Shown here piece by piece: positions 6,779 to 29,459 of a DNA stretch of 36,756 bases. The notes under the pieces were generated by a model, which was given only the letters and a program-made list of their open reading frames with translations, did no database searches and was not told the origin of the DNA. The stretch comes from an uncultured Bacteroides sp. (lineage in GTDB: Bacteria; Bacteroidota; Bacteroidia; Bacteroidales; Bacteroidaceae). The DNA lies in NCBI GenBank assembly GCA_947074295.1, contig CAMTPC010000021.1:1-36756 (forward strand), written 5' to 3'. A program made the translations under genes and the position numbers. The number at the start of each line of letters is the position of its first letter. Positions within the stretch are counted from its first letter, which is position 1.

Positions 6779-7381
6779 ATGAATAAAAATAAACGAAGAA
6801 TGACTTTAAGACAGCGCATTGCATTAGTTCTGTGTATATTGTTATCGACTACAATATGTCACCATGCTCGAGGCCAGGAAGTGGGAATCAAGACGAACCT
6901 GCTTTACGATGCCACCACTACCCTGAATCTGGGTGTAGAGGTGGGGTTGTCTCGCCACTGGTCGCTAGACATATCGGGCAGTCTCAACCCATGGAAATTC
7001 AAGGACGATAAGCAATTCAGGATATGGATGGCACAACCCGAGGCGCGCTATTGGTTTTGCGAGCAGATGAGCGGACACTTCATCGGGGTGCACGCCATGG
7101 GCGGACAGTTCGAAGCGTCGGGCGTGAAGCTGCCTTTCGGGCTGGTGAAATCGCTCAAGGATAATCGATACCAAGGATGGTATGTGGGTGCCGGATTTGT
7201 ATATGGCTATCAATGGGTGATGGCTCGCCACTGGAACTTCGAAGCCGCCGTGGGTGTGGGCTACGACTACCTGAACTGGACCAAGTATAAGTGCGGGAAG
7301 TGTGGCACCAAGGAGAAGAGCGGCCACACCAACTATTTTGGCATCACCAAGCTGGCCCTGACACTGATCTATGTTTTCTGA
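6779..7381 (+). CDS. DUF3575 domain-containing outer-membrane protein, first gene of type V pilus operon
   Basis: Signal peptide then QEVGIKTNLLYDATTTLNLGVEVGLSRHWSLDISGSLNPWKF...QPEARYWFCEQMSGHFIGVH, the DUF3575 pattern found with Bacteroidales fimbrial loci. Confidence 0.85.
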   Translation: MNKNKRRMTLRQRIALVLCILLSTTICHHARGQEVGIKTNLLYDATTTLNLGVEVGLSRHWSLDISGSLNPWKFKDDKQFRIWMAQPEARYWFCEQMSGHFIGVHAMGGQFEASGVKLPFGLVKSLKDNRYQGWYVGAGFVYGYQWVMARHWNFEAAVGVGYDYLNWTKYKCGKCGTKEKSGHTNYFGITKLALTLIYVF

Positions 7382-7428: not shown

Positions 7429-8856
7429 ATGAGAAAACGTTTCTACATCATTATATGGATAGCCGCATGGATAGGCACATGGAGCACAGCCATCGCGCAG
7501 CCGATGCGGATACAGGACAATATCGCGCTTGACAATGTATCGTTGACACGCGTCAATGATGAGATGGTGCTAGCACTGGACCTGGTGCTGAACGATTTGG
7601 AGCTACGTTCCAGCCAATCGCTGGTATTTGTACCCTACATCAATGCCTATGAGGGGATGGAGACGGCGTGGTTTCAACCCATCATCATCAACGGACGCAA
7701 GCAGCACATTCTTTACCAACGGGGCAGATACAACCGCAACTACCCTGATGCGGCCGAATTCAGACGCCTCAACGGCGAGCCACAGACTGTGCGCTATATC
7801 TCGGCCATCCCCTATGACACATGGATGGAGGCCTATAAAGTGGGTCTGCTGGAGGATGTATGTGGCTGCGGCGAACTGCTAGCGCAAAACAACGTGCAAG
7901 TGGCTCAATACCTGCCATTGCCTACCACCGCCTTTTTCGTGTTCATTGAGCCCGAAGTGGTATATAGCAAGAGTGGATCGGTAGAGGGCAAAGCCTATCT
8001 GGACTTCCCCGTAAACCAATCAACCATCGACCCCGGCTACCGCCGCAACCCCGAAGAGTTGGCAGTGATCCTAGAAACCATCAACGTGATGGAATACGAT
8101 CCCAACATCACCATCACTGGTATCGACATACACGGATATGCTTCGCCCGAAGGCAGTTATAGCAACAATGCCCGACTGGCTGCCAGCCGTGCCGAGGCAC
8201 TGAAGGAGTATGTGCGTCACCTCTATAAGTTCGACGAGGGGTTGTTCACCGTCACCTCTACCCCCGAAGATTGGGAAGGCCTCATCGAATGGCTCACCAA
8301 CAGCGACCTTCCACAAAAAGAGGCGCTGCTGGCCATTGCCACTTCCGACCTCTCGCCCGATGCCAAGGACCGCAAGATCAGAGACAACTATGGCAGCGTG
8401 TACCGCGATGTGTTGCTCATCGACTGCTACCCCAGCCTGCGCCATTCGGACTACGTGGTGCACTATGTCATCCGCCCCTTCACTGCAGAGGAGGCGTTGG
8501 CCCTGCTCAAGAAAAACCCCGCGCAGCTCAGTCTGCACGAAATCTATATGGCGGCTAGCCTCTTCGAGTCACAAAGTCCCGAATTTGCCGAGATACTCTA
8601 TGTGGCCGCTACCCTTTTCCCTGAAAGCGAAACAGCCAATGTGAACGCCGCCAATGCCGCTCTTGCCGCTGGAGACACGGCAGCCGCTCAGCGGTTCTTG
8701 GCCAAAGCAGGAGACAGTGGCGAGGCACAGCTGACACGCGGCATCCTCCAGATGTGGCAAGGACATATCGACCAAGCCCGTCTTCTCTTCCAAGAAGCAG
8801 CCGCCAAAGGAGTGGCAGCGGCATCCCAGAACCTGAAATTGATAGAGAATTATTAA
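7429..8856 (+). CDS. DUF3868/OmpA-like protein with TPR-like C-terminus, pilus-associated
   Basis: MRIQDNIALDNVSLTRVNDEMVLALDLVL...; OmpA-like TGIDIHGYASPEGSYSNNARLAASRAEALKEYV; alanine-rich helical C-terminus. Confidence 0.82.
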   Translation: MRKRFYIIIWIAAWIGTWSTAIAQPMRIQDNIALDNVSLTRVNDEMVLALDLVLNDLELRSSQSLVFVPYINAYEGMETAWFQPIIINGRKQHILYQRGRYNRNYPDAAEFRRLNGEPQTVRYISAIPYDTWMEAYKVGLLEDVCGCGELLAQNNVQVAQYLPLPTTAFFVFIEPEVVYSKSGSVEGKAYLDFPVNQSTIDPGYRRNPEELAVILETINVMEYDPNITITGIDIHGYASPEGSYSNNARLAASRAEALKEYVRHLYKFDEGLFTVTSTPEDWEGLIEWLTNSDLPQKEALLAIATSDLSPDAKDRKIRDNYGSVYRDVLLIDCYPSLRHSDYVVHYVIRPFTAEEALALLKKNPAQLSLHEIYMAASLFESQSPEFAEILYVAATLFPESETANVNAANAALAAGDTAAAQRFLAKAGDSGEAQLTRGILQMWQGHIDQARLLFQEAAAKGVAAASQNLKLIENY

Positions 8857-8892: not shown

Positions 8893-10767
8893 ATGAAATT
8901 TTTAAAGTACTTACCTTTTGCACTAGCCATTGCTTTGATGGTGGGGTGTAGCGATGACAATGTGACTCTTCAAGAAGAAGAGAGTTCGGAACTCATGGCA
9001 GATGGTGGTTCGGTTAGTATCCGCATCAATCTTCCATCTACTACTGCAGTGACCCGCGCAACCGAAGCCGAGCTGGCCGACGGACTTAGCCAAGAATATG
9101 CGGTGAACGATGGTACCATCATCCTGTTTGACGCGCAAGAACGCTTCGTAACCAAACAGACCTTTACTGGTAGCGAACTTAACTTCACAGCCAATACGGC
9201 CAATAACATCACCTCTTCTTCTGTGGAAGTGAAGATTGGCCCTAACTTGAAGACACCTAAGTATGCCGCAGTATATCTCAACATGACTACCGCCGCTGCC
9301 ACCGAGCTGGTTTATTCGACATTCAACGAAACCAAGTCGCCTATCAATGGCCCCAACAATGCCATTGTGGATGTAAACGGTAATGGCTATTTCTTCATGA
9401 GCAACTCTACGTTTGATAACAGCAATGCGCCAACCAGCGTATATCACTCCACGAGTGGTTTGCAGACTCTACAAGAGCTAGATCCTGCATCAGTGAAATC
9501 TACTTCAGCAACCACCAATTCGAACGAAGCCACTACTAACATCTATGTAGAAAGAGCCTCTGTGAAGGTAGAACTTACATTCACCAATGCCTCTAACCAA
9601 GCCAATGAAGTGACAGGTAGTACAGCTATAGTAGACGCTACCACTGGCTTGCCCACTATCACCTTTACAGCAGGCGCTAATGTTGGCGACCAGATCACAG
9701 TAACAGGATGGACCTTGAATGCTACCAACAAGACTTACTACAGCACCAAGCTTATTGATGCTACTAACTGGGCAGATTGGTTGACCACTACCAAGTACTT
9801 CATGGCTCCTTATGTGTCTCGTCCAAGCGACTTCCGTTCACACTTTGGTATCGACACCAACTATGACGGCAGCACGTTGACTAACTCGGCTACACAGGGA
9901 TTCTACGAAGAGTTCAACTACGCATCGTTGAGCCAAGCCATCAATCCTAGCAAGACTACAGCTACCAGCACAGGTGTGCAATACCTGTATTGCTTGGAGA
10001 ATACATTCGATGTAGACAATCAGGAACAAAACCAAACGACTTCCCTATTGATCGCTGCCAACTATAAACAAGCTGGCAATGCCGACACCAGCGGCGACAT
10101 CTTCAAGCTAGGTACTACCATCTATGGTGGCAACGGTGTAAGCCTCATCAACCACTTGGTGACTGTGCTCAATGCCAATGGCTACCAAAAGGTTGCCGGA
10201 ACCACGGGCACTACCCCATCGGCTATCGTGGCTGCCGACCTCAAGATCAACAAAGGCAATTATATCTACAAAGACCTGATATTGCCCAACAATTGCTCTA
10301 TCGTGTTCAACGGCAATGTAGTGGCTGCTATGGATACCTCAATGGATGCCATCCTGAACTCGGTATTGGGCTACAGAGCCATCTCTTACTATAAGGGAGG
10401 TAACTGCTTCTACTCTGTACCTATCCGCCACTTCAACGACGAACAGGTGCCATTGCTCGACGCTACTGGCAACTATGTATCGTTCAACGGCACTGTGACT
10501 CATGTTAACAATACCGATCAGCTAGGTCGTTATGGTGTGTTGAGAAACAACTGGTACTCTGCCGAAGTAAGCTCTATCAGCAGCATCGGCCGTCCTGTAC
10601 CTGTAAGCCCAACCGATCCTATCAACCCAGATCCTAGTTATCCCGACCCACAAGATCCAGATCCAAACAATCCTGCTCCTACTCCAGACGATGTGGTTAA
10701 CACCTATCTACAGGCTAAGATCAATATCTTGCCATGGGCCAAACGTTCACAAAAGATTAAACTCTAA
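8893..10767 (+). CDS. Mfa1-family major fimbrillin (type V pilus subunit)
   Basis: Lipobox LMVGCSDD; TTAVTRATEAELADGLSQEYAVNDGTIILFD (typical fimbrillin N-terminal region with Arg before mature domain); C-terminal GVLRNNWYSAEVSSISSIGRPVP, Pro/Asp-rich linker, LQAKINILPWAKRSQKIKL. Confidence 0.87.
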   Translation: MKFLKYLPFALAIALMVGCSDDNVTLQEEESSELMADGGSVSIRINLPSTTAVTRATEAELADGLSQEYAVNDGTIILFDAQERFVTKQTFTGSELNFTANTANNITSSSVEVKIGPNLKTPKYAAVYLNMTTAAATELVYSTFNETKSPINGPNNAIVDVNGNGYFFMSNSTFDNSNAPTSVYHSTSGLQTLQELDPASVKSTSATTNSNEATTNIYVERASVKVELTFTNASNQANEVTGSTAIVDATTGLPTITFTAGANVGDQITVTGWTLNATNKTYYSTKLIDATNWADWLTTTKYFMAPYVSRPSDFRSHFGIDTNYDGSTLTNSATQGFYEEFNYASLSQAINPSKTTATSTGVQYLYCLENTFDVDNQEQNQTTSLLIAANYKQAGNADTSGDIFKLGTTIYGGNGVSLINHLVTVLNANGYQKVAGTTGTTPSAIVAADLKINKGNYIYKDLILPNNCSIVFNGNVVAAMDTSMDAILNSVLGYRAISYYKGGNCFYSVPIRHFNDEQVPLLDATGNYVSFNGTVTHVNNTDQLGRYGVLRNNWYSAEVSSISSIGRPVPVSPTDPINPDPSYPDPQDPDPNNPAPTPDDVVNTYLQAKINILPWAKRSQKIKL

Positions 10768-10827
10768 ACCTCTCGACCTCTGTGCGTGTGCACACTACAC
10801 GCTATAGATGATATAAGAACAAAAGGT

Positions 10828-10870
10828 AAGAAAACCCGGCAGTGTGTCACTGCGCTGCCGGAGTTTTCTT
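10828..10870 (+). terminator. Strong stem-loop between major fimbrillin and Mfa2-like gene (partial terminator, attenuator or RNA-stability element)
   Basis: AAGAAAAC-CCGGCAG ... CTGCCGG-a-GTTTTCTT: 15-bp stem with a single A bulge and U-rich 3' arm. An alternative overlapping pairing GCAGTG-tgt-CACTGC is also available. Confidence 0.75.
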
Positions 10871-10995
10871 CTCGCACATCTGCCACCACTGGGCAGCACC
10901 AATAAGCATCCACCACCCGGTGCCAAGAACAGGATGGTATCTTGGAGAAGCTTCCCCGACAGGACAACGCCTCTCCCACCTAAACAGAAAGAAAC

Positions 10996-11038: not shown

Positions 11039-11097
11039 ACAGCACTGCCCAGACCAACCTTAACAAAGACAGCGAGATGAAAGGTTTTGACACAACA

Positions 11098-12216
11098 ATG
11101 AAGAAAAGAGGAATAAGATATGCGATGGCGACCTTGCTGGCGGCATTGCTGCTCCACTCGTGCCACTTGATGGATATGGACCAGAGCGATTGTCCTACGG
11201 GACTTTATATCAATTTCGTGTACAACTATAATATCCATCGGGCCGACATGTTCAAGGATCATGTGGGAGGACTCAAGCTATTCATCTTCGACGAGAACGG
11301 CTACTTTGTGACCGAAAAGGCCGAGCACAACAACGACAGCCAGCAGCCACTTTCCTATTACGGCTATGCCATGCACGTGGAAGGCTTGCAACCCGGCAAA
11401 TACCAGTTCATCGCCTTAACGTTTCAGAAGAGATACGAAGATGCCCTGAGCACGAATGGTGCCAAGTATCGCCACAATCTATTGCAACCAGGCGACTCCA
11501 TGTCTATGCTCAAGACCACCCTAGACTTCGACGATTGGAAAGAGACCTCTTACGATGGCGCTTCCAAACAGATCAATGGCTATGCTGTCAATTCCGACTG
11601 TCCGCTCGACACCCTTTGGCACGGCATGTTGCTCACCCCCGTGGAGCTACGGGTAGACGAAGCCGCCTATGCCACCATCAGCCTGATGCGCAACACCAAA
11701 CGCCTCAACGTCAGCATCCGCCAGATGAGCCAAGGGCAGCAAGACCAGTGTAGCATCGAAAACTATGACGTGTATGTGGCCGACAAGAACGCCACCACCC
11801 TGTACAACAACGATGTGGAAGGCAACGAACAAGTGCTCTACACCCCCCACACCACATGGGACACCAAGGATATAGCCATGTCGCGAGCCGATGATGGCAC
11901 CACCATCACAGCGCAGACGGCCCACGCCGAGCTCAATCTGAATCGTCTGACAGCCGATACGGAAGGCACCAACACCTCCAAGCTTCATATCTACAACAAC
12001 CAGACCAACACCCTGGTGGCCGAGGTCAACCTGCCCGATCTGTTGCAACAAGGCCGTGCAGCCTACGATATGTACAGCTATTCCACTCAGGAGTATCTGG
12101 ACCGCGAGCACAACTATTCGCTCTCCTTCTATCTGGTGGGCGATAAATGGGAGTATGTCAATCTGTCGGTATCGTCATTGCCCTGGACCAAGCGCATTTA
12201 CCGTACGAAGTTATAA
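11098..12216 (+). CDS. FimB/Mfa2-family fimbrial anchor lipoprotein
   Basis: MKKRGIRYAMATLLAALLLHSCHLMDMDQSDCPTGLYINFVYNYNIHRADMFKDHVGGLKLFIFDENGYFV matches the Mfa2/FimB pattern. Alternative ATG at 11077. Confidence 0.87.
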   Translation: MKKRGIRYAMATLLAALLLHSCHLMDMDQSDCPTGLYINFVYNYNIHRADMFKDHVGGLKLFIFDENGYFVTEKAEHNNDSQQPLSYYGYAMHVEGLQPGKYQFIALTFQKRYEDALSTNGAKYRHNLLQPGDSMSMLKTTLDFDDWKETSYDGASKQINGYAVNSDCPLDTLWHGMLLTPVELRVDEAAYATISLMRNTKRLNVSIRQMSQGQQDQCSIENYDVYVADKNATTLYNNDVEGNEQVLYTPHTTWDTKDIAMSRADDGTTITAQTAHAELNLNRLTADTEGTNTSKLHIYNNQTNTLVAEVNLPDLLQQGRAAYDMYSYSTQEYLDREHNYSLSFYLVGDKWEYVNLSVSSLPWTKRIYRTKL

Positions 12217-12240: not shown

Positions 12241-13818
12241 ATGTTGAAAACAAGAACACATACGATCTATATACTGCTGATGCTCGCATTGCTGCTAGTG
12301 TCGGGAGGTTGCTCGTGGAGCACCGCCGATCACGAATACACGGATGACGAGAACTATGCAGGCATCTATATCAGCCTACGGATACAAGCCGGTCTGGACG
12401 CTACCCGCGTGGACCCCATAGGAGGCGAGTACGGCGAAGGCACCCAGAATGGCGAGAACAACGAGAGCGTGATCTACAACCTGGCACTGTTCTTCTACCC
12501 GGCTGCTGCAGCCACCTCGCTCGACGATACCAGCACCACTGCCCTCAACGCGCCGCTGACGCTGATCTATGTCAACGATATCGTCACCATCAACCAACAG
12601 ACGGGCGCCACACAGTGGAGCACCAATCCGATAGCCGCTAAAGCACTGGAACTCTACAAAGCCTACCGATTGATAGTGGTGGCCAATGCCAACCTGCCCG
12701 AGATGAGCACCATCAAGACACTGGGACAGTTGCGCAACTACCAGATAGGCAATATCTACACCCGTGGCACCACTCTGCAACAGTATGACAACTTCACGAT
12801 GTCGTCGCGTATCCTCAATGCCACCGATGAGAACAGCTTTGCCGTGACGGGCAATCATGTCTACAGCAATCCGCTCCCCGTAAGTGTCAAGCTAGACCGC
12901 CTCACCGCACGTGTCGACCTGATACCCTATACCTCGACCAATGGCGCCGTGTATAGCGGAGGCACTTATACCTACCCCGTGACTATTAATGGCACCCTCA
13001 ACGCCGATAAGGTGACACTGACCGGCATCACCCCAATCAATATACTGAACCAGAAAAGCTACTTGCTGAAACACATGGCAGCGGCAGGCAGCGATGGAGA
13101 GATCAATGCGGCATCTGTACGCCTTGTGGGCAAGGAAACGCCCGATGCCGGCAACGAGACAGGCTACGTGCTAGAACCCACCACCAGCAGCAAGACCAAG
13201 AACAGCGCCGAGCAACCCACCTGGTATGACTACTATTACAAGACCGTCAACTCGTGGAACTTGCTGCAACAGACGGCAGTGGATGGCTCGTATATCCTCT
13301 GTTATATCCACGAAAACACCATGACCAAAAGTGCGCAACTACCCCGCTACTCCACCGGCTTGAGCCTGAAAACCATCTACCAACCCTCCAAGTGGTGGGT
13401 AGACCAGAGTGGCGTATCGGTGGAGAAGACAGCCAGCGTGGGCGCCACTTTCTACACCTTCCGCGACAAGGTGTATGGCGACCTCACCGCCCTGGCACGG
13501 GGCATCAACCAGTGGACGGGTGCCACCAGCGTAACCGCCTCCACAGCTGCCACTTGGACAGGCGTGAAGACCTACACCAACGGCGTGTGCTACTACAGCT
13601 ATTGGATACGCCACTCCAATGACAACACACTGGATACCACGAAAGGAATCATGGAATACGCCATCGTGCGCAACAATATCTATCGGGTGATCATCGACTC
13701 GTTCTCGTCCATCGGGTCGCCTCAACCCGTCACCGAGGAGACGCAGAACGAAGACATCATCGTCAGCCTGTATGTCATCCCCTGGAACATCATCCTGAAC
13801 AAGAAAATCTACATCTAG
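12241..13818 (+). CDS. Second Mfa1/FimA-like fimbrillin (minor/accessory subunit)
   Basis: Lipobox LLVSGGC; ATRVDPIGGEYGEG...ESVIYNLALFFYP; C-terminus IMEYAIVRNNIYRVIIDSFSSIGSPQP...VSLYVIPWNIILNKKIYI parallels the 8893 fimbrillin C-terminus. Confidence 0.82.
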   Translation: MLKTRTHTIYILLMLALLLVSGGCSWSTADHEYTDDENYAGIYISLRIQAGLDATRVDPIGGEYGEGTQNGENNESVIYNLALFFYPAAAATSLDDTSTTALNAPLTLIYVNDIVTINQQTGATQWSTNPIAAKALELYKAYRLIVVANANLPEMSTIKTLGQLRNYQIGNIYTRGTTLQQYDNFTMSSRILNATDENSFAVTGNHVYSNPLPVSVKLDRLTARVDLIPYTSTNGAVYSGGTYTYPVTINGTLNADKVTLTGITPINILNQKSYLLKHMAAAGSDGEINAASVRLVGKETPDAGNETGYVLEPTTSSKTKNSAEQPTWYDYYYKTVNSWNLLQQTAVDGSYILCYIHENTMTKSAQLPRYSTGLSLKTIYQPSKWWVDQSGVSVEKTASVGATFYTFRDKVYGDLTALARGINQWTGATSVTASTAATWTGVKTYTNGVCYYSYWIRHSNDNTLDTTKGIMEYAIVRNNIYRVIIDSFSSIGSPQPVTEETQNEDIIVSLYVIPWNIILNKKIYI

Positions 13819-13840: not shown

Positions 13841-15157
13841 ATGAAGAAACGACACCACATAGCAGGCATTCTATTTCTCCTGATCGGAGCGATGATAGGC
13901 AGTTGCACCCACGACGATGAGTCGCAGGGGCAATCGAGTTATGTAAACCCCGATCACATCACACTGAACATCACACGCGGACTCTCCGCTACAGACATAG
14001 GCACGGGCGCTATCGCCGAGGAGATGATCTACAACTGGACGATAGTTATCGTCAATGCCGCCAACCAGGTAGAAGCAACCTTGACACGCGGCAACTTCAG
14101 TGGCATGTCATCTACCCCGGTAGAGGCCGAGGAAGTGCGCCTCAGCAACTATAGCAGCCCTGTGAAGCTGACCAACGGCGCCAAGAAGATTTACACCTTC
14201 GTGAACATGGCCGTGCCCACAGCTTTCACTCAAAGCACCATCACCGAGGCAGCCGCCAATGCGCTGACCACTACTGTTGGAGGCAATGGCTTCGTCGTAT
14301 CTGCCAGCAACCCCATCCCCATGACCAGCATCGTGACTGCCACCCTAGACGATAGGCAGATACAAAAGATAGAGATCCCCGTGAAGCGCCTGATGGCGAA
14401 GGTGCGGTTCGACTTCAGCAACCTCACCACAAGTGCCATCACCGTGACGGGCATCAAGATGAAATACATCACCCAGAACGCTGCCAACAATGTCTACCTG
14501 TTTCAGCAACTTTCGGGCACACTGCCCGTGCTACCATCTGCTGCCACACAGGCCGACTACACCGCCTATAGCGGCAGCCTCAGCGTAGCTGCCAACAATG
14601 CCGCAACCGTGTCGCAGCGCTTCTACCTCAACGAATCGCCCAAGCCCACGAATGTGGAGTATATCGGTTTCACGCTCACCACCCAGAAGGCAGGGAGCGC
14701 CACCACCGAGACCCGCTACGCGCTGACCGACGTCAACGCCCTGAAGCGCAACGACTACCTGATCATCCCCATCGGTTTCACCTCCTATGTCTTCCAGCCC
14801 CGTATCGACTTCTATCCTCCCATCGGAGGCTATGCGCAGGCCGATATCACGAGCGACGCCAGCGAGGTGTTCTACTGCACTTTCAAGAGTGCCGGGCAGT
14901 TTGTGTTGCGTCCGCAGCTCTACAACAGCGCCACCATGGCACAGGTAGCCTCCTCGGCCGTCAGTGTGACAGTCACCCCCGTCGAGGGCAGCAACTTGCT
15001 GAACGGCACCGTGAGCCTAAGCCCCACCGATGGTTGGTGGACCGGCATGCTGACAGGCAATGAAGGCCGCCTGCTGCTGACACTCACCTATCAGGTGACC
15101 GAGAGTGGCGTGACCTTTACGCTAGAGCGAAAAATCTACCTCATTGTGAAACATTGA
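13841..15157 (+). CDS. Fimbrillin-like accessory/minor pilus lipoprotein with extra C-terminal beta-rich domain
   Basis: MKKRHHIAGILFLLIGAMIGSC lipobox; NITRGLSATDIGTGAIAEEMIYNWTIVIVNAANQV; VKRLMAKVRFDFSNLT; C-terminal YPPIGGYAQADITS... extension beyond a typical fimbrillin. Confidence 0.7.
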   Translation: MKKRHHIAGILFLLIGAMIGSCTHDDESQGQSSYVNPDHITLNITRGLSATDIGTGAIAEEMIYNWTIVIVNAANQVEATLTRGNFSGMSSTPVEAEEVRLSNYSSPVKLTNGAKKIYTFVNMAVPTAFTQSTITEAAANALTTTVGGNGFVVSASNPIPMTSIVTATLDDRQIQKIEIPVKRLMAKVRFDFSNLTTSAITVTGIKMKYITQNAANNVYLFQQLSGTLPVLPSAATQADYTAYSGSLSVAANNAATVSQRFYLNESPKPTNVEYIGFTLTTQKAGSATTETRYALTDVNALKRNDYLIIPIGFTSYVFQPRIDFYPPIGGYAQADITSDASEVFYCTFKSAGQFVLRPQLYNSATMAQVASSAVSVTVTPVEGSNLLNGTVSLSPTDGWWTGMLTGNEGRLLLTLTYQVTESGVTFTLERKIYLIVKH

Positions 15158-15176: not shown

Positions 15177-18100
15177 ATGACACGCTATATCAAAATACTA
15201 CTGCTGATGTGTTTGTCGCTATGTGCGCCACAAATCTTCTACGGGCAGACCACACTGAAACGAGTGGCCTCTACCAAAGCTGCGCCCGGCCAACCCACCG
15301 TGGTGTCCAACGGCAATGGCAGCGTGACCGATCTCCAAGCCGCCCATGTGCTGAGACAGACCATCTATATCGCCCCCTACTCCACTGCTCGCAGACGACT
15401 GCTGCCGCAGGTAAACCAGAGCAGCAAGATGACCCAATACATGCGTTGGTTCCCTTACGACAAGAAAGTAGCGTTGCCCACCTTTAGCGTGCAGGTAGGT
15501 ACATTGTTTGCCGATGCCACCAACGGGTATTACCTCAATGGAGGGACCAATTCTGCCAATATCCGCCCCGAGATAGACTACAACTTCATAGGGCGCACAG
15601 TGGCTTGCGACATCTCCAAGACAGCCGGCACACTGGCTTCCAATGTATTAACAGAACCACAACTGGACTATCGCATGATTTTCGATATACGGTCGGCCAA
15701 AGAAATATCCGATCAGCTGATGGCAACCGATACCATCAATGCGCTGGAGATGCACGACATCTTTGCGCCTATCGGCAGACCCTTGCTCATCGGCCCCGCC
15801 TATGCCTACACCACCATCAGTCAGAATTATGGCAGTGGCACATCGGCCTACACCGTGGCCCGACAGTCCAACTACTTCGTCTACAACTCGTCGACGGGCA
15901 CCTACTTAGAAACCAAGAGTGGCAACACTACCGCCATCACCGACTTCTATTGGTATTGTGCCGAGACAAAAACCACGATCACCACTAGCAGTGCCATAAT
16001 GCCCGGCAGCAATGGAACCATCACGCCGAGTACTGTCTATAACGGGCAGATACTAGCACTGGCCGCCTATACGGGCGCAGCCACCACACGCACCTGGTAC
16101 CTGATGAACACAGCAGGAAAATGCATAACTAAGTTCAAGATCAACTATCAGAATACCGATACCTATGGTCCGAAAAAAGACGGATTCGCACAATATACAC
16201 CCGAAAACCTAGCAGCTAAATACAAGCTCCTGTCCGAACGCCGGTTTGACTACGAGACCTACCCAGCAGGCAGTGGATTCAAGATATTCAAGAGCTATGG
16301 ACTGAACTGGGACGAATGTACTTATGGGTATTATAATCAGGATGCGGGTAACCCCGACTGGAGTCAATACGCCTTTATCTCCACCACATCGAGTGCCATG
16401 TCTAATAGCTGGACCTACTCGAACGTGTACGACCGCCTGTACGAACGCACCAATAAAGTCACCATGGGGATGATGTATTATGTGGACGCCTCTGAAGTGC
16501 AAGGCATCGTGTCCAAGCTCGACATCAGCTCAGCCGCCTGCCCTGGCACACAGCTCTATCTGACTGCATGGGTACGCAATGTAAACAATAAGGGAAAGCT
16601 GGGTCCTAACCTCAACTTCGAGGTAGTGGGCTATAACAACAGCACCGGAAAAGACGAGGTTCTGCGCGGCTTCACCACCGGTACGATGGATGTGGACGGC
16701 ACCAACGGCAACAGCTGGTATCAGGTGTTCTTCCCCGTCACCGTACCCCAGAAGGACTACACCAGGCTCTACTTCCAGATCGTGAACAATCAGTTGGGAT
16801 CTGACGGTAACGACTTTGTGATAGACGACATACAGGTTTTCATGGGCATGCCATCGGCCAGCGCGCAACGCCGCTCGCCTATGTGCGGCAAGCAGGCAGT
16901 GGTCAATATCAACCTGGACTATACCAAGCTAGCGAATATCATCGCCCTCAACTCCAAGGGCTATACCACGCAAGCGGTGAGCTACTGCATAGCCGACAAG
17001 CAAGTGTACGACAACTACTTGGAAGGTATAGACAAGAAAGGCAACACTGTGCCCGTAGCCAACCGCACTACTGCCAATGCCCTCAACGAGTCGCGCATCC
17101 TGCTCTACAGCGGGGCGGATATCAACGGCTCGTCCTATTTCAACTATTTCGTGTTCAGATACAATCAGGACAGCATAGCGGGTGGAGGCATCGGCAACTA
17201 CAAGAACATCTATGCCCTGCAACCCGACAGCACGCTTTACAAAGACATTGATACCTACAATACCTACTACACCACGGAGATGATAAAACAGCGTACAAAG
17301 GTATTCCGCCAAAACTCGTCTATCCCAACGCTATCCTTCCAAACCACACTGCAAGGCAGCGCGGATATGCCGATAGCCACCGGACGCGAATACTACATCA
17401 TCTTCAACAAAGACGCTATGCAGATAAGCGAAGCCACCTTCAACGGTACAGGCAGCCTTTTGTCGGCAAGCGATATCAGCACCTTGACCAATATGTCGAG
17501 CTACAACACCTCGGACAACTGTGCCCTGTTCACCACCGTGAAGCTGCGCGGCACATCTGCCGTGGAGATGAATGGACTAGGAACGCTCTACGATGCCGGA
17601 ACGGACGTATGTGCCAACACACGCCCCACCTTCGCCATCAACACCCTAGCCTATATGGAAAACGGCGTGCGCAAGACAGTGGGTGCCAGCGCCATGGGTA
17701 TCGTGTTCGATTGGTACAAAGGCACCATCAGCGAACTGGAAAGAAAGATCTATGCGGCGAGCGGTGCTAGTGGCTACCAGGTGGTGACCGAGAATAGCTC
17801 GGGTGCCTTCTCGGTGAAAGATGCGCTGAGCATATTCCGCAGCTACTATACCTCGGCAGGCGAAATCGAATATTTCCCCGCTGTGGGCACTTATACAGCA
17901 GCCATGCGCGCCTTGCTCATCGCCCTGTGCAACGACAGCAAGACTTCTAGCTTTTGCAACGACAACACCTTGTCGCTCTACAGCCAGAGCTATTCGCCCA
18001 ACCTGGGCAGCGAGGCGGGCATGATGTACTACTATGTAGCAATCCCGTTCAAAGGCACCATCATCGAAAGCGATATATTGAAGCTGATCTGTATGGAACC

Positions 18101-20660
18101 CCAACAGATCATCGTGCGCAGCGCCTCCAAGGCTCCATCGCTGACACTGGGTATCGACGGAGTGGACTATGGCAACGAATCGGTGATCCCCGTACGTCTA
18201 GGATTGTCGCAAATCAGAGACATGAAATCGAATATCGCCGCTGCCGACCAAACCAGCAAGGTGAAATACCTGCGCCTGCCTGTGTACACCAATAAGGTGA
18301 CATTCAGCAAGAGCACCTTTACCAATATAAAGAATGTGGCCAACAGCAATGACCACTACCGCAAGCTGATACTGATAGACAGCAACGACCCTATGGTGGT
18401 GAACCTCGCCGACAACAACATCGTGTTGGGCTACCTCAATTGGATAGACGTGAAGAAGAGCAATGCTGCCAACATGAACAGTCTGGGCATCTACTTCTAT
18501 TGTGACGCCAATGGCAACTTGCCCGTCAACCTGCGCGAAGGCTATACCTACACACTGAAATTCTTCATCAGCGAGTATGACGACTCCGAGAATACGGGCG
18601 ACTGCGAAGGCAGTGTGCTGATACCAATGAAGATAGTGCCCGAATACCAGATATGGAACGGCACCACCACGCAGCGCAACTATAACAATGATGCCAATTG
18701 GCTACGTGCCGAGCGCACCGATTTCTATGGTCCTACGACCTATACCAGCAATAATGTGAACTATCGCCAGTCGGATGTGTACAGCGCCGGAACCACCTAT
18801 GCCGAGACGCCACGCACCTCGTTCGTGCCCATCTACAACACGAAAATCATCATGCCGCCTAGCCGGGCACCTCGCCTCACCAACATCACACAGACCAGCT
18901 CCATCACTGTGGCCGATGTGTCGAAAGACACCCTGGTGATAGGTAGTGTGACACCGAAGATACAGAACGACCTGACCATCTATCCCCGTCAGACCGATGC
19001 CAACAGCGTGCCGTATTATCCCTGCCTGGCCTTCTATGCCAACCGCTGCGACACCGTGTACTTCCAGCCTGGAGGGGCGATGATCAACGCACAATACCTG
19101 ACCTACAACCGCGCTGTGGTAGACTTTGCCGTGAATATCAACCGCTGGTACTTGCTGGGATCGCCACTGAAAGGCGTTGTGGCAGGCGACATGTATACAC
19201 TCACCACACCGGGCACACAAAACACCTATGCCTTCGGGGCAGTGAACTATAGCACCACGCTGAACCACCGCTTCAAGCCCGCCGTGTATCAGCGTGCATG
19301 GGACAAGGTGTATGCCATCGCCTATCAGTTTGACAACCAGAGCAGTGTGGCATCCGCCCAAACCCAGCGCAACATGGCGATGAAAGCCACCTGGAGCACC
19401 GTGTTCAACGACGTGAATGTGCCCTATCTGCCTGGTACAGGATTCAGCATCAAGTCGCAACCCGAAACCACGGCGACCTATACGCAGAACATCTTCCGTC
19501 TGCCCAAGGCCGATACCCAATATGCCTACTACACCTATGACGGGCTGACCGACACGGGCGATAACACCGCAGTGACAGTGAACCGCACCAATGCCGGCAG
19601 GCTAGCCACCGATGGGCTGACAGCCAGCACCAACCTCACCGTGAGCCTCAGCGCCAGCAACTCCACGGGCAATGCTAATGGCAATGCCGAGAGCACCAAC
19701 AAGCTCTATCTGTTGGCCAACCCCTACATGTGCAACCTCAACATGCAAGCCTTCTTGACGGCACATAGCACCATCTTCGAGCAGCAGTACTGGCTACTCA
19801 CTGCCGACAGGCAGACGGGTGTGATTATGGGCGATGGCACGGTGAGCGTATCATCCAGCGGCACAGCGCCAACGGTAGGCCCCATGCAAGGCTTCTTCGT
19901 GCAACTCAAGAGCGGAGTAGCCGCCAATCCCACCGTGACCTATACCATAGCCATGATGGCGGACGGTGCTGCCCCCAGCACTGTTACCCGAGCCTCTGAT
20001 GAAAGCAGCGACAACGCCCGACAGCTCTATCTCGAAGCCGAGCGCGATGGTGTGACCTGCACCGCGCTGGTGAGACAGGTCGATGATGAAGATAAAAACG
20101 ACAATCAATACATGCTTAACCTCCCCACTCTTCTGGACGATAATATAGACATTCTGCCCATGGTCTATACTATCAGAGAGGGCGAGGCAATGCAAATACA
20201 TACACTGGATGGCGCCACCACTGTGCCGTTAGGCATCTACAGCAACAGCAACGAAGAGGTGGAACTACGCCTCAAGGGCACCGAGCATTTCGCCGGGCTG
20301 GCACTGTATGATGCGTTGACCCATACCTCCACGCCGCTCGATGACAATCCTACTTTGGTATTGCCAGGCAACACCAACGGCCGCTATCTGCTGGTCTTTG
20401 CCACAGATATCAATGAGGAGAGTGATCCGACACAGAGCATCACTGTATCGGCTATCGAAAGGGAAAGCATACTAGTGACATCGGACATCAATGACCCCAT
20501 CGAGGAAGTGATAATACATGACACCACAGGTAGAGTGTGCCACCATCAAACCAACATAAATACCAGCAGTCAGCTCATCTCGATGGCTGCGGGTACCTAT
20601 ATCGTGACTGTCAGGACGGCAGACACACTATATACTGCAAAGGTTTTAGTTCGAAGTTAA
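15177..20660 (+). CDS. Giant (1827 aa) secreted protein with C-terminal T9SS type A-like sorting domain, last gene of pilus operon (giant B; putative adhesin/tip)
   Basis: Signal peptide MTRYIKILLLMCLSLCAPQIFYGQ; MAM/jelly-roll-like LYLTAWVRN...NDFVIDDIQVFMG; core shared with giants A and C; C-terminus DPIEEVIIHDTTGRV...AAGTYIVTVRTADTLYTAKVLVRS. Confidence 0.85.
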   Translation: MTRYIKILLLMCLSLCAPQIFYGQTTLKRVASTKAAPGQPTVVSNGNGSVTDLQAAHVLRQTIYIAPYSTARRRLLPQVNQSSKMTQYMRWFPYDKKVALPTFSVQVGTLFADATNGYYLNGGTNSANIRPEIDYNFIGRTVACDISKTAGTLASNVLTEPQLDYRMIFDIRSAKEISDQLMATDTINALEMHDIFAPIGRPLLIGPAYAYTTISQNYGSGTSAYTVARQSNYFVYNSSTGTYLETKSGNTTAITDFYWYCAETKTTITTSSAIMPGSNGTITPSTVYNGQILALAAYTGAATTRTWYLMNTAGKCITKFKINYQNTDTYGPKKDGFAQYTPENLAAKYKLLSERRFDYETYPAGSGFKIFKSYGLNWDECTYGYYNQDAGNPDWSQYAFISTTSSAMSNSWTYSNVYDRLYERTNKVTMGMMYYVDASEVQGIVSKLDISSAACPGTQLYLTAWVRNVNNKGKLGPNLNFEVVGYNNSTGKDEVLRGFTTGTMDVDGTNGNSWYQVFFPVTVPQKDYTRLYFQIVNNQLGSDGNDFVIDDIQVFMGMPSASAQRRSPMCGKQAVVNINLDYTKLANIIALNSKGYTTQAVSYCIADKQVYDNYLEGIDKKGNTVPVANRTTANALNESRILLYSGADINGSSYFNYFVFRYNQDSIAGGGIGNYKNIYALQPDSTLYKDIDTYNTYYTTEMIKQRTKVFRQNSSIPTLSFQTTLQGSADMPIATGREYYIIFNKDAMQISEATFNGTGSLLSASDISTLTNMSSYNTSDNCALFTTVKLRGTSAVEMNGLGTLYDAGTDVCANTRPTFAINTLAYMENGVRKTVGASAMGIVFDWYKGTISELERKIYAASGASGYQVVTENSSGAFSVKDALSIFRSYYTSAGEIEYFPAVGTYTAAMRALLIALCNDSKTSSFCNDNTLSLYSQSYSPNLGSEAGMMYYYVAIPFKGTIIESDILKLICMEPQQIIVRSASKAPSLTLGIDGVDYGNESVIPVRLGLSQIRDMKSNIAAADQTSKVKYLRLPVYTNKVTFSKSTFTNIKNVANSNDHYRKLILIDSNDPMVVNLADNNIVLGYLNWIDVKKSNAANMNSLGIYFYCDANGNLPVNLREGYTYTLKFFISEYDDSENTGDCEGSVLIPMKIVPEYQIWNGTTTQRNYNNDANWLRAERTDFYGPTTYTSNNVNYRQSDVYSAGTTYAETPRTSFVPIYNTKIIMPPSRAPRLTNITQTSSITVADVSKDTLVIGSVTPKIQNDLTIYPRQTDANSVPYYPCLAFYANRCDTVYFQPGGAMINAQYLTYNRAVVDFAVNINRWYLLGSPLKGVVAGDMYTLTTPGTQNTYAFGAVNYSTTLNHRFKPAVYQRAWDKVYAIAYQFDNQSSVASAQTQRNMAMKATWSTVFNDVNVPYLPGTGFSIKSQPETTATYTQNIFRLPKADTQYAYYTYDGLTDTGDNTAVTVNRTNAGRLATDGLTASTNLTVSLSASNSTGNANGNAESTNKLYLLANPYMCNLNMQAFLTAHSTIFEQQYWLLTADRQTGVIMGDGTVSVSSSGTAPTVGPMQGFFVQLKSGVAANPTVTYTIAMMADGAAPSTVTRASDESSDNARQLYLEAERDGVTCTALVRQVDDEDKNDNQYMLNLPTLLDDNIDILPMVYTIREGEAMQIHTLDGATTVPLGIYSNSNEEVELRLKGTEHFAGLALYDALTHTSTPLDDNPTLVLPGNTNGRYLLVFATDINEESDPTQSITVSAIERESILVTSDINDPIEEVIIHDTTGRVCHHQTNINTSSQLISMAAGTYIVTVRTADTLYTAKVLVRS

Positions 20661-20688
20661 TTAAAGGTTTTTTATCAGGAGACAAGAG

Positions 20689-20740
20689 ACCCGCACAATA
20701 CCTGTTACAAGGTTATTATGCGGGTTTCTTTATGCGATTT
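20689..20740 (+). terminator. Rho-independent terminator of the pilus operon
   Basis: ACCCGCA (20689-20695) ... TGCGGGT (20719-20725), inner partial pairing, followed by TTCTTTATGCGATTTTTTTT. Confidence 0.7.
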
Positions 20741-20798: not shown

Positions 20799-21674
20799 TC
20801 AGTAAGTCTGGGCAGACACATCTTCACCACTATGGGCTTTTCGAAAAGTGCCCGGCGACACACCTTTGAGGCGCTTGAAAACCCGATTGAAATATGGGAT
20901 ATTATCAAATCCTGACGCATAGCACACGTCCGAGATAGTCAGCCTTTGTTCGGCCAGCAGTTGACAAGCCAGGTCGATGCGGTGCTCATTGAGATAGGTA
21001 ATGAAGGTTTTGTTAGTGGCTTTCTTGAAGAATACACAAAACGAGGCACGGTTCATGCCGATGTGGCGTGCCATGTCATCGAGGGTGATGCTTCGCTTGG
21101 CGTTGCATGTCACATAGATCTCTATCTGGCGCAAGCGCTCTTTCTCTTTATCGGGTTGGCGTTGCTGCCCTACCACGGTCTGCTTGGCACTATCGCTCAT
21201 CATCAACAGCAGTCGCAGGAAAGAGACCGCTTTCTCGGCATCACTCTGCACCCGCATGCGTTTCAATATATCCGATAACGAGTCGGCTGTCTGCTGATCG
21301 TATTTTATCGCCGCATCAGTCGATTTGAGCCGCTCGATGGGCATCGCCAATTCGGCAAAACAATGGGCACAGCGATTGAGCAGTGCGGTGTCAAACTTGA
21401 CGGTGATATTGGCGATGCGTCCCCGATGATCGGTGACATTTCCATCAAAATACCAACAATGAGGAATGCCGGGCGGAATCAATATGACTTCGCCGCTATC
21501 GAAAGGCTCGGAGGTGTCGCCGATAAGACGGATACCTGTGCCATAGATAATGTAGGACAGTTCCCAAGTGGATTGATGGTGCAGACCGATCTGTTCCTTG
21601 GGATCGAGGTGCACATAGTCGAAGACGAAGGAAGTAGGTCCATCGGTTGTATTATTTTTGTTCTTCTCTTTCAT
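20799..21674 (-). CDS. AraC-family transcriptional regulator
   Basis: N-terminal cupin-like (LHHQSTWELSYIIYGTGIRLIGD...VILIPPGIPHCW), C-terminal double HTH (ITLDDMARHIGMNRASFCVFFKKATNKTFITYLNEHRIDLACQLL...ISDVCYASGFDNIPYFNRVFKRLKGVSPGTFR). Confidence 0.95.
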   Translation of the reverse strand: MKEKNKNNTTDGPTSFVFDYVHLDPKEQIGLHHQSTWELSYIIYGTGIRLIGDTSEPFDSGEVILIPPGIPHCWYFDGNVTDHRGRIANITVKFDTALLNRCAHCFAELAMPIERLKSTDAAIKYDQQTADSLSDILKRMRVQSDAEKAVSFLRLLLMMSDSAKQTVVGQQRQPDKEKERLRQIEIYVTCNAKRSITLDDMARHIGMNRASFCVFFKKATNKTFITYLNEHRIDLACQLLAEQRLTISDVCYASGFDNIPYFNRVFKRLKGVSPGTFRKAHSGEDVSAQTY

Positions 21675-26846: not shown

Positions 26847-27797
26847 TCAAAGGCGGCTGAGTCGCTTGGCACGTTCCTCCTCGGAATAGAGTTGATTGAA
26901 GCCTTCGCGCGTACGCTTCCAGCGATTATGCGACCACAACCAATAGGGAGGGCTAGCCTTGATCTGATCTTCGAGCATGCGGAAATATTGCTCGGTGATG
27001 CCAAACCTCGGAACATCTTTGACCGCATCGCTCATCAGCACGAACTTGCAGGTGTAGTGTCCGCGATCGGTGCGAGTGATATCTACGTAGACAGCCACAG
27101 CGTCTATCAGTCGGGTGATGCGCTCGGCACCGGTAAAGACGGGTGTATCGTGGTTCAGGAATTGCGTGAAATAGTGGATGTTGGGATAACCTGGCGCTTG
27201 ATCGGAGATATAGCCCACACAGCTGTTGTGCCCCGATCGCTCCCAGCCCACTACCGTGCGGAAGGTATCTTCCATGGTGATGCACTCGGTGGTGAATCGG
27301 CTACGCAAGTAAAGGAAGAGTTTGTCGAAAGCAGGATTCTCTAGCGCATGGTAGATCTGTCCTCTCTTCTGCTCGCCCTGAAGGCAAAGCGGTATAGAGC
27401 TGATCCACTCCCAGTTGCAGTAGTGCCCCAGAAATAGTGAGACGGAGCGCCCCTGACCCAAATAGGCATTGATCATCTCGGCATTCTCGAAAGTGAGCCG
27501 CTGACGCATCTGTTTCTCGCTGATGGAGAAGAGCTTGATGGTCTCAGCAAAGAGATCGCAGAAATGACGATAGAATTCTTTCTCGATGGAAATGATTTCT
27601 TTTGTACTTTTTTCGGGGAAAGATGAGGTGAGATTGTTACGCACAATCTTACGGCGATACCTAAATACGAAGTAAAGTAGCAAGTAGTTGAGGTCTGAGA
27701 AAAAATAGAGCACCCGTAATGGCAGCAGTGAAGCCAAAAACCAAAACACGTACACTAGATAATATAAAATGATATTCATCCGATGGATTAAATGCAT
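26847..27797 (-). CDS. Lysophospholipid/lipid A acyltransferase family protein (LpxL/HtrB-like)
   Basis: RKIVRNNLTSSFPEKSTKEIISIEKEFYRHFCDLFAETIKL...SVSLFLGHYCNWEWIS...PPYWLWSHNRWKRTREGF, canonical family motifs. Start may be Met at 27779. Confidence 0.92.
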   Translation of the reverse strand: MHLIHRMNIILYYLVYVFWFLASLLPLRVLYFFSDLNYLLLYFVFRYRRKIVRNNLTSSFPEKSTKEIISIEKEFYRHFCDLFAETIKLFSISEKQMRQRLTFENAEMINAYLGQGRSVSLFLGHYCNWEWISSIPLCLQGEQKRGQIYHALENPAFDKLFLYLRSRFTTECITMEDTFRTVVGWERSGHNSCVGYISDQAPGYPNIHYFTQFLNHDTPVFTGAERITRLIDAVAVYVDITRTDRGHYTCKFVLMSDAVKDVPRFGITEQYFRMLEDQIKASPPYWLWSHNRWKRTREGFNQLYSEEERAKRLSRL

Positions 27798-27803
27798 AGC
27801 CTG

Positions 27804-28838
27804 TTAAGTTAAAACCCCTTCTACTTTTTGAATCACTTGCTCGGGACGGATATCGTACAGGCAAGCATAATCGCCACGATAGCAAGGCTTGTCGCCAAAG
27901 ATAGAGCATGGGCGGCAAGACATCGTGAGCTGCACACAGTTGACCGGTAGTTGCTTCCAACCCAGAAAGCCTGCATAGGGATGTGTAGCTCCCCATACCG
28001 ACACCACCGGAGTATTGACAATAGAAGCCAGATGCATGTTGGCCGAATCCATCGACAGCATCACATCAAGATGGCTGATGAGGTTGAGCTCCTTGTCCAT
28101 ATCGAGCTTGCCGATCATGGAGGTGAGGTTGGGATATTTGGCTACCCAGCCATCGAGAATGTTCTTCTCGTGAATACCGCCACCGAATAAGAACACCCGC
28201 GTATTGGGGCGTTGGGCAAAATGAGCCACAACTTTCTCTTCCAGCTCAATCGGATAGACCTTCCCTTTGTGTTTGGCAAAGGGAGCGATACCGATCCATT
28301 TTTCGTCAACCGGACGCTTGCCCGTGATGGGTTCGATGATACTGAAATCGCCAGTGCCCTGCCCGTATATCGAGGTGAAGTTGAGCAGCACCGGGAAACC
28401 CAGTCGTTCCAGCACGTCGGCATAGCGGCGGAATCCGCTTTTGAGGTTCACCAAAACCTTGTCTTCTCTCCGAACCAGACGACGCTTGGCTTTGCGCTCC
28501 TTGTCGATGCGCTCCATGCCTGCACCCGTCACCGCAAAACGCATGCGCAGATACTTGGTGCGCAACACGTCATGAAAGTCGGCGATATAGTCGAAATTCT
28601 TTGTCTTGAGCTCGGCGTAGAGGCGATTGAGCCCCTCGATACCTCGATGTGCGCCATGAAACTGCGCCCCGAAAAAGGTAACATTCGAGGGCATCTCATT
28701 GAACAATGGCTTAAATTGCTCGCGGCTCAAAACCGTGATTTCTAGTTGAGGATACTGCAGGGCCAAAGAGGTGATCACCGGAACGGTCATTGCCACATCG
28801 CCCAGCGCCGAAAGGCGCATGATCAAGATACGGGCCAT
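27804..28838 (-). CDS. Glycosyltransferase family 9 (heptosyltransferase-like)
   Basis: MARILIMRLSALGDVAMTVPVITSLALQYP...ISHLDVMLSMDSANMHLASIVNTPVVSVWGATHPYAGFLGW...C-rich C-terminus. Confidence 0.93.
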   Translation of the reverse strand: MARILIMRLSALGDVAMTVPVITSLALQYPQLEITVLSREQFKPLFNEMPSNVTFFGAQFHGAHRGIEGLNRLYAELKTKNFDYIADFHDVLRTKYLRMRFAVTGAGMERIDKERKAKRRLVRREDKVLVNLKSGFRRYADVLERLGFPVLLNFTSIYGQGTGDFSIIEPITGKRPVDEKWIGIAPFAKHKGKVYPIELEEKVVAHFAQRPNTRVFLFGGGIHEKNILDGWVAKYPNLTSMIGKLDMDKELNLISHLDVMLSMDSANMHLASIVNTPVVSVWGATHPYAGFLGWKQLPVNCVQLTMSCRPCSIFGDKPCYRGDYACLYDIRPEQVIQKVEGVLT

Positions 28839-28853
28839 CTTAGGGTTGTTTTA

Positions 28854-29459
28854 TTATTTCTTAGCGTAAAGCACCGGATTCAACGCCGGATCATTATACA
28901 TCTTCATCTGTTTGTACACCTTCATGTACTTGCTACCCGAACCCATGTCGGCCAATAGCTGGTCGATAGCGGTCGATAGGTCTACACGTTGCTCCAGTAG
29001 CACGGCCAGCTTCTTCTCGCATTGTGCGTGGTGCTCGGGGGTGGTATCTGTACGCTCCACTTCCTTTTGCATGTGATAGATCTTTAGCGCAAGAATCGAC
29101 AGGCGGTCAATCGCCCATGCCGGACTTTCGGTGTTGATTGAGGCGTCTTCGGCCATCTCCACAGCCTTGAACTTTTCCAGGAAATAGCTGTCAATCAGCT
29201 CTACCAAATCCGTGCGGTCTTGATTAGAGCTATCGATGCGGCGCTTGATGGCCAATGCTTCTACAGGGTCGATGTTGGGATCGCGAATGATGTCTTCCAA
29301 GTGCCACTGCACAGCGTCAATCCAATTTTTCAGGTAAAGATAATACTCGATGGTTTTCAACTCGTATGGATTGTGCATCTCTGCATCCACATGATCGGTG
29401 ATGTGATAATCGTTGGTCGATTTCTGGAAAATATCGTTGCTTAGGCTACTAAATGTCAT
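28854..29459 (-). CDS. DUF4254 domain-containing protein
   Basis: ALAIKRRIDSSNQDRTDLVELIDSYFLEKF...TESPAWAIDRLSILALKIYHMQKEVERTD..., position upstream of GT9 gene. Confidence 0.82.
   Translation of the reverse strand: MTFSSLSNDIFQKSTNDYHITDHVDAEMHNPYELKTIEYYLYLKNWIDAVQWHLEDIIRDPNIDPVEALAIKRRIDSSNQDRTDLVELIDSYFLEKFKAVEMAEDASINTESPAWAIDRLSILALKIYHMQKEVERTDTTPEHHAQCEKKLAVLLEQRVDLSTAIDQLLADMGSGSKYMKVYKQMKMYNDPALNPVLYAKK

Follow-up and report, generated by a model that had tools for sequence, protein, structure and literature searches.

A giant protein with a type IX sorting domain ends a Bacteroides type V pilus operon: a candidate pilus-associated adhesin in the position of Mfa5

The operon and its last gene

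The window, the whole 36,756-nucleotide stretch of DNA analysed here, is a complete contig (C21) of a 3.73 Mb Bacteroides draft genome. It carries an operon that runs from a DUF3575 gene (6779) through genes for a DUF3868/OmpA-like protein (7429), Mfa1 (8893), Mfa2 (11077), a second Mfa1-type fimbrillin (12241) and an Mfa3/FimD-like protein (13841) to a giant gene, giant B (15177-20660). An Mfa1-family pilin and an Mfa2 anchor within one operon identify it as encoding a type V (Mfa) pilus. From mfa2 onwards the genes are separated by 24, 22 and 19 bp; the gap between mfa1 and mfa2 is larger, at 309 bp.

6779-7381 (+), DUF3575 protein, likely the first gene of the operon (PF12099, 251 bits)
7429-8856 (+), DUF3868/OmpA-like outer-membrane protein, the conserved second gene (PF12984, 26.8 bits against a cut-off of 27; PF00691, 20.5 bits; gene order conserved)
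8893-10767 (+), Mfa1-family major pilin with a lipoprotein signal ending LMVGC (NF038041, 175.7 bits against a cut-off of 130; PF15495, 88.9 bits)
10825-10875 (+), hairpin with a T-rich tail between mfa1 and mfa2 (-29 kcal/mol, z -6.6)
11077-12216 (+), Mfa2-type anchor (PF08842, 156.7 bits)
12241-13818 (+), second Mfa1-type fimbrillin with a lipoprotein signal ending VSGGC (NF038041, 163.6 bits)
13841-15157 (+), Mfa3/FimD-like tip subunit with a lipoprotein signal ending MIGSC (Mfa3 5nf4, 1.5e-8; Mfa4 5dhm, 0.002; NF052322, 5e-10, a weak FimD-like match)
15177-20660 (+), giant B, proposed T9SS-exported pilus-associated adhesin (1827 aa, ATG start)
20680-20735 (+), terminator-like hairpin 3' of giant B (-25.4 kcal/mol, z -7.3)

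The first-pass annotation had placed giant B 19 bp after a fimbrillin-like gene and at the end of an Mfa-type operon, just before a terminator. Both statements hold, the open reading frame following the stop of the 13841-15157 gene and preceding the hairpin at 20680-20735, the loop of which exceeds the limits of our consensus terminator scan. The hairpin between mfa1 and mfa2 is a candidate attenuator that may set expression of the major pilin above that of the anchor, tip and giant genes. A consensus promoter scan returned matches at chance level only, and a scan for the Bacteroides -33/-7 pattern returned none. The family profile of the second fimbrillin matched 4jrf (6e-25), 9y6o (4e-15) and Mfa1 (5nf3, 0.002). 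Convergent with giant B is a gene for an AraC-family regulator (20799-21674, -), possibly a regulator of the operon, and further along, at 26847-29459 (-), consecutive genes for a lipid A acyltransferase, a GT9 heptosyltransferase and a DUF4254 protein are likely to form an LPS cluster.

Giant B itself is built from the following parts.

15177-15248 (+), signal peptide, residues 1-24, without a lipobox (MTRYIKILLLMCLSLCAPQIFYGQ, read by eye)
16464-16856 (+), jelly roll at approximately residues 430-560, with NDFVIDDIQVF as its end and with Asp546 and Asp550 invariant (predicted structure)
18984-20402 (+), conserved core, about residues 1270-1742, with conservation highest at 1281-1440, common to the class-2 relatives described below
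20430-20657 (+), T9SS type A C-terminal sorting domain (CTD), about residues 1752-1827 (TIGR04183, 32.4 bits against a cut-off of 23)

The signal peptide noted at first reading is of the non-lipoprotein kind, whereas the preceding fimbrial products carry lipoboxes in their sequences. A jelly-roll or MAM-like segment had also been proposed, and the structural model of residues 25-640 (pLDDT 84) bears this out, with Foldseek matches to CBM22, CBM4, CBM16 and the MAM domain of neuropilin-1 at E values of 1.6e-5 to 5e-4 and TM scores, by target length, no higher than about 0.5-0.6. The domain has no Pfam match, and we therefore assign it to no family. For the T9SS-type C-terminus, the TIGR04183 match is joined by a match of the giant family profile to the CTD of gingipain RgpB (4.9e-5), and the AlphaFold model of the C-terminus resembles two CTDs of known structure, that of RemZ within the T9SS translocon (8gl8_D), with a TM score by target length of 0.82 and an rmsd of 1.8, and that of RemA (8gl6_D; 0.79). 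Long-range Foldseek matches of the 641-1827 model to GhpA, the nuclear pore and others were discarded, their rmsd being above 30 A. No VWA domain was matched in giant B by Pfam or NCBIfam, in agreement with the earlier reading that it lacks a VWA/MIDAS pattern; its DxSxS-like strings are isolated and not conserved, and were rejected as such a motif.

The host genome encodes the T9SS machinery on which the first-pass proposal depended (SprA, 2888 bits; PorU, 1049 bits; GldM, 475 bits), and SprA is present in every tested genome with a CTD-bearing giant. Taken with the CTD and the Sec signal, these genes predict export of giant B through T9SS. There are 34 TIGR04183 matches in the 3.73 Mb of the host genome, so that the chance of finding one on the same strand within 10 kb downstream of a given operon is about 0.05. 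The arrangement recurs over dozens of genomes, which excludes chance.

Conservation of the giant with the pilus operon

Matches to the giant occurred in 39 of 201 genomes from the family of the host, and in these an Mfa2 gene precedes, on the same strand, the giants that score more than about 200 bits, wherever the contig extends far enough. The closest giant, in an uncultured Bacteroides MAG, is 72% identical to giant B. An alignment-based scan of GTDB, limited to the best 80 matches and thus favouring close relatives, yielded 78 loci with 64 giants having an intact 5' end, 63 of them with enough upstream sequence to be informative. Fimbrial genes, or once a tandem giant, lay upstream in all 63 of these loci from the best 80 matches. 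The nearest same-strand upstream open reading frame was a fimbrillin-type gene in 56 of the 63, at a median gap of 15 bp; in six of the other seven, fimbrial genes stood slightly further upstream, and in one (L116) the giant follows another. An Mfa2-profile match was found in 44 of the 54 loci with room for one. Such counts are conservative, since automatic calling loses some genes to antisense open reading frames. The preset test of the first-pass annotation, that homologues elsewhere should mostly have fimbrial neighbours, thus came out in its favour.

The recurrent order is that of the window (DUF3575, DUF3868/OmpA, mfa1, mfa2, mfa1-like, Mfa3-like, giant), with an open reading frame of about 190-230 aa at the DUF3575 position in most conserved loci, and it spans Bacteroidaceae, Muribaculaceae and Parabacteroides. 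Cultured hosts of a giant locus include Bacteroides luti, Parabacteroides gordonii, P. goldsteinii and Paraprevotella clara. By regular expression, a lipobox is present in 49 of the 55 direct neighbours and absent from 61 of the 64 giants. In two genomes (G176 and G148), the Mfa3-like gene and the giant occur as tandem units, and at loci L059 and L061-L062 such a duplication lies inside one operon. Prevotella sp. 885 (L133) has two giant-ended operons arranged tail to tail.

Family members range from 1629 to 3594 aa, and all 68 giants have the jelly roll. From the jelly roll to the C-terminus they measure 1067-1619 aa, and the stretch ahead of it, in giants with intact starts, 405 to 2156 aa. 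Conservation is low and insertions are largest in the first roughly 160 residues, and conservation peaks at residues 1281-1360. A variable N-terminus on a conserved remainder would suit a protein in which a conserved stalk or dock carries the part that binds ligands. The longest giant (L040:1766-12550, -; 3594 aa) has a RicinB lectin match in its long N-terminus (32.7 bits against a cut-off of 25.6). The lectin match is of the ricin-type beta-trefoil kind, and a Fascin match lies in the N-terminal part as well.

The window holds two paralogues of giant B, recognized by sequence comparison.

10-3972 (+), giant A, 43% identical to giant B, its 5' end cut by the contig end
30819-36524 (-), giant C, 29% identical in the C-terminal half, with a CTD

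The 232 bp between giant C and the contig end contain no fimbrial gene or tip-subunit remnant, which weighs somewhat against giant C as a simple continuation of the operon on contig C198. Giant C nevertheless resembles the giants of two other loci (L102 and L105), the upstream genes of which match C198, and its likely partner is the second mfa operon of that contig, orthologous to L102/L105. This observation takes in locus L069 and a break in the assembly. In another genome (G135), the second mfa operon ends in an unrelated T9SS protein of 1665 aa (L076:5867-10864, -) that contains DUF11 repeats and weakly matches CBM4_9. The T9SS proteins that close pilus operons thus come from more than one family.

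A C-terminal module of about 330 aa is widespread on its own in T9SS cargo of Bacteroidales, which could make the giants generic cargo that happens to lie near pilus genes. An order-level control of 20 loci comprised L170, L171 and L172 and 17 low-scoring, module-only loci. The conserved operon was present at none of the 17, two of which have little upstream sequence, as against fimbrial genes or a tandem giant at 63 of 63 full-length loci from the best 80 GTDB matches; only L174 among the 17 has an isolated tip-subunit-like gene. The linkage therefore belongs to the full architecture and not to T9SS cargo in general, and an incidental association is scarcely credible. As to the other three loci, L170 encodes a full-length relative with the fimbrial operon, L171 a full-length giant with no fimbrial neighbours, and L172 a class-2 relative with a DUF3868/OmpA gene.

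Relation to Mfa5 and a proposed role at the pilus tip

Porphyromonas gingivalis Mfa5 is the precedent for a pilus component exported by T9SS (PMC7835359). Mfa5 (PGN_0291, 1228 aa) is encoded by the last gene after mfa1-mfa4, is by far the largest product, is the only fimbrial protein with a CTD, and is T9SS dependent; it sometimes occurs as two tandem copies and has a conserved C-terminal and a variable N-terminal part (PMC7835359, PMC5954841, PMC8313007). Giant B and its family parallel it: giant B is likewise last in its operon and 3' of tip-subunit genes, has a CTD from which the same export is predicted, and belongs to a family with the same division into conserved and variable parts. The two also differ. 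Giant B is longer, at 1827 aa, and begins 19 bp after its neighbour, whereas mfa5 is reportedly transcribed independently of mfa1-4. Mfa5 genotypes A-C combine a VWA domain with Ig-like domains bearing an isopeptide bond, and giant B has a CBM/MAM-like jelly roll instead.

The first-pass annotation had set giant B apart from Mfa5 by the VWA domain. That giant B lacks one stands, but the contrast is weaker than it was stated to be, because two of the P. gingivalis genotypes of Mfa5, D and E, lack it too; tandem mfa5 genes are also known in that species (PMC8313007). These two genotypes (genes of 4020 and 6615 bp) have a CTD and an N-terminus without known relatives (PMC8313007), features that giant B shares; they are described within one species only, and we liken them to giant B by description. 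The giant family profile did not match the Mfa5 chains in the PDB, though the deposited chains may not include the shared C-terminal half. Nor did it match in 23 genomes of the genus of G411, a genome with a FimD equivalog (587 bits) that we took for Porphyromonas, and no mfa cluster was found in 357 kb surrounding the fimD of G411; as G411 is probably not P. gingivalis, these negatives have no bearing on the relation to Mfa5. In P. distasonis, a published study reports no mfa5 match (PMC9409006). The literature covered, weak evidence with subscription journals mostly outside it, yielded no paper on this operon position outside P. gingivalis. A jelly-roll-bearing giant family occupying the Mfa5 slot in many genera appears new when set against genotypes D and E by description, and giant B itself is best classed, on its sequence, as a putative variant of the Mfa5-type, T9SS-dependent pilus component.

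Other known tip proteins are more distant. FimC, FimD and FimE, like Mfa3 and Mfa4, are accessory tip proteins of type V pili that follow the lipoprotein route and have pilin folds, as giant B does not; it is the 13841 neighbour that shows a relation to Mfa3 and a weak one to FimD. The large multidomain tip proteins RrgA and GBS104 of Gram-positive pili resemble giant B by analogy only, being sortase assembled and VWA bearing, with no sequence relation to it detected.

The association of the giant with the pilus that the first-pass annotation proposed is strongly supported by the adjacency at all 63 informative loci, the T9SS genes of the host and the Mfa3-related neighbour. We consider it likely that giant B is a T9SS-dependent accessory component of the pilus in the operon slot of Mfa5, docking at the tip and presenting ligand-binding domains. 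The pilins, the anchor and the Mfa3-like 13841 product would follow the lipoprotein route. Giant B would cross the inner membrane by Sec, be recognized by its CTD, pass the outer membrane through SprA and be processed by PorU. Once on the surface, it may dock on the 13841 product at the pilus tip, most likely via its conserved C-terminal region, and so present to ligands, probably glycans, its CBM/MAM-like jelly roll and the variable domains of its N-terminus. The same gene order is kept in many gut bacteria related to this one, which makes the giant the probable ligand-binding end of the pilus.

The proposed docking partner is suggested by its relatives. The best match of the 13841 family profile is the tip subunit Mfa3, followed by Mfa4, and in P. 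gingivalis Mfa3 binds and bridges Mfa1, Mfa4 and Mfa5, its binding to Mfa5 being of nanomolar affinity (PMC5954841). Giant and neighbour also co-diverge (Mantel r 0.35, p 0.0005; 0.33 given Mfa2), and the association of the giant with Mfa2 vanishes given the neighbour (r 0.01, p 0.45); a weaker link, to the second fimbrillin, persists when the neighbour is held constant (r 0.22). We regard this co-divergence as supporting, not decisive, for a partnership.

Anchoring to A-LPS is established in P. gingivalis for many cargo proteins of T9SS type A, and such a protein could act beside the pilus and not on it. The giant might accordingly be anchored independently on the surface (to A-LPS via PorU) and have only its expression in common with the pilus, working as an adhesin or glycan-binding protein in its own right; paralogue C and the giant of L171, which have no adjoining fimbrial gene, would suit this alternative. 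That the giant stands directly beside the Mfa3-like gene in diverse genomes, that the two are duplicated as a unit and co-diverge, and that Mfa5 offers a precedent all argue the other way, and we think independent anchoring unlikely. Less probable again is that the giant serves mainly in assembly, stability or length control of the tip complex and not as an adhesin. Such a role has its model in P. gingivalis, where, according to work cited in PMC5954841, the entire tip complex is missing and the amount of Mfa1 fimbriae is reduced when Mfa5 is lost; variable N-terminal regions of CBM-like or lectin-like kind fit ligand binding better, and the two roles are compatible.

Type V pili are widespread in gut Bacteroidales, and their tips are little known outside P. 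gingivalis. If giant B is a tip component, a conserved and easily recognized candidate with a variable N-terminus offers a way of finding what these pili bind. It would also open to experiment the question, so far tied to Mfa5, of how a T9SS product becomes attached to a pilus of lipoprotein-route subunits.

Class-2 relatives and the route of export

A second subfamily (class 2) shares the core of the giant at 185-297 bits, with proteins of 1259-1612 aa where complete. In SprA-positive genomes, its 12 proteins have a signal peptide and continue past the core in a tail of 83-90 aa that matches the CTD profile. In SprA-negative genomes, six proteins end 1-5 residues past the matched core (one, L156, matches only part of it) and lack a CTD; they have a lipoprotein-type signal, with a regular-expression lipobox in five and LYSC in the sixth. 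The association of SprA status with the CTD has a Fisher p of 5e-5, ignoring relatedness, and the negatives come from three genera. Four of the six SprA-negative clusters include a strong DUF3868/OmpA match, and some have weak Mfa2-like matches. In an SprA-negative Bacteroides genome (G149), a close mfa1-mfa2 operon runs on into lipoprotein genes, with no T9SS giant.

These differences raise the possibility, which we hold tentatively and at somewhat less than even odds, of a pilus-tip giant family in which the core is independent of the export route: it would carry a CTD where T9SS is present and become a surface lipoprotein alongside DUF3868/OmpA where it is not, one component having moved between two unrelated export pathways. 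Such a switch of route appears new. The predicted class-2 lipoproteins are at loci L066, L067, L068, L071, L155 and L156, and the CTD-bearing proteins at L063-L065, L070 and L157-L163.
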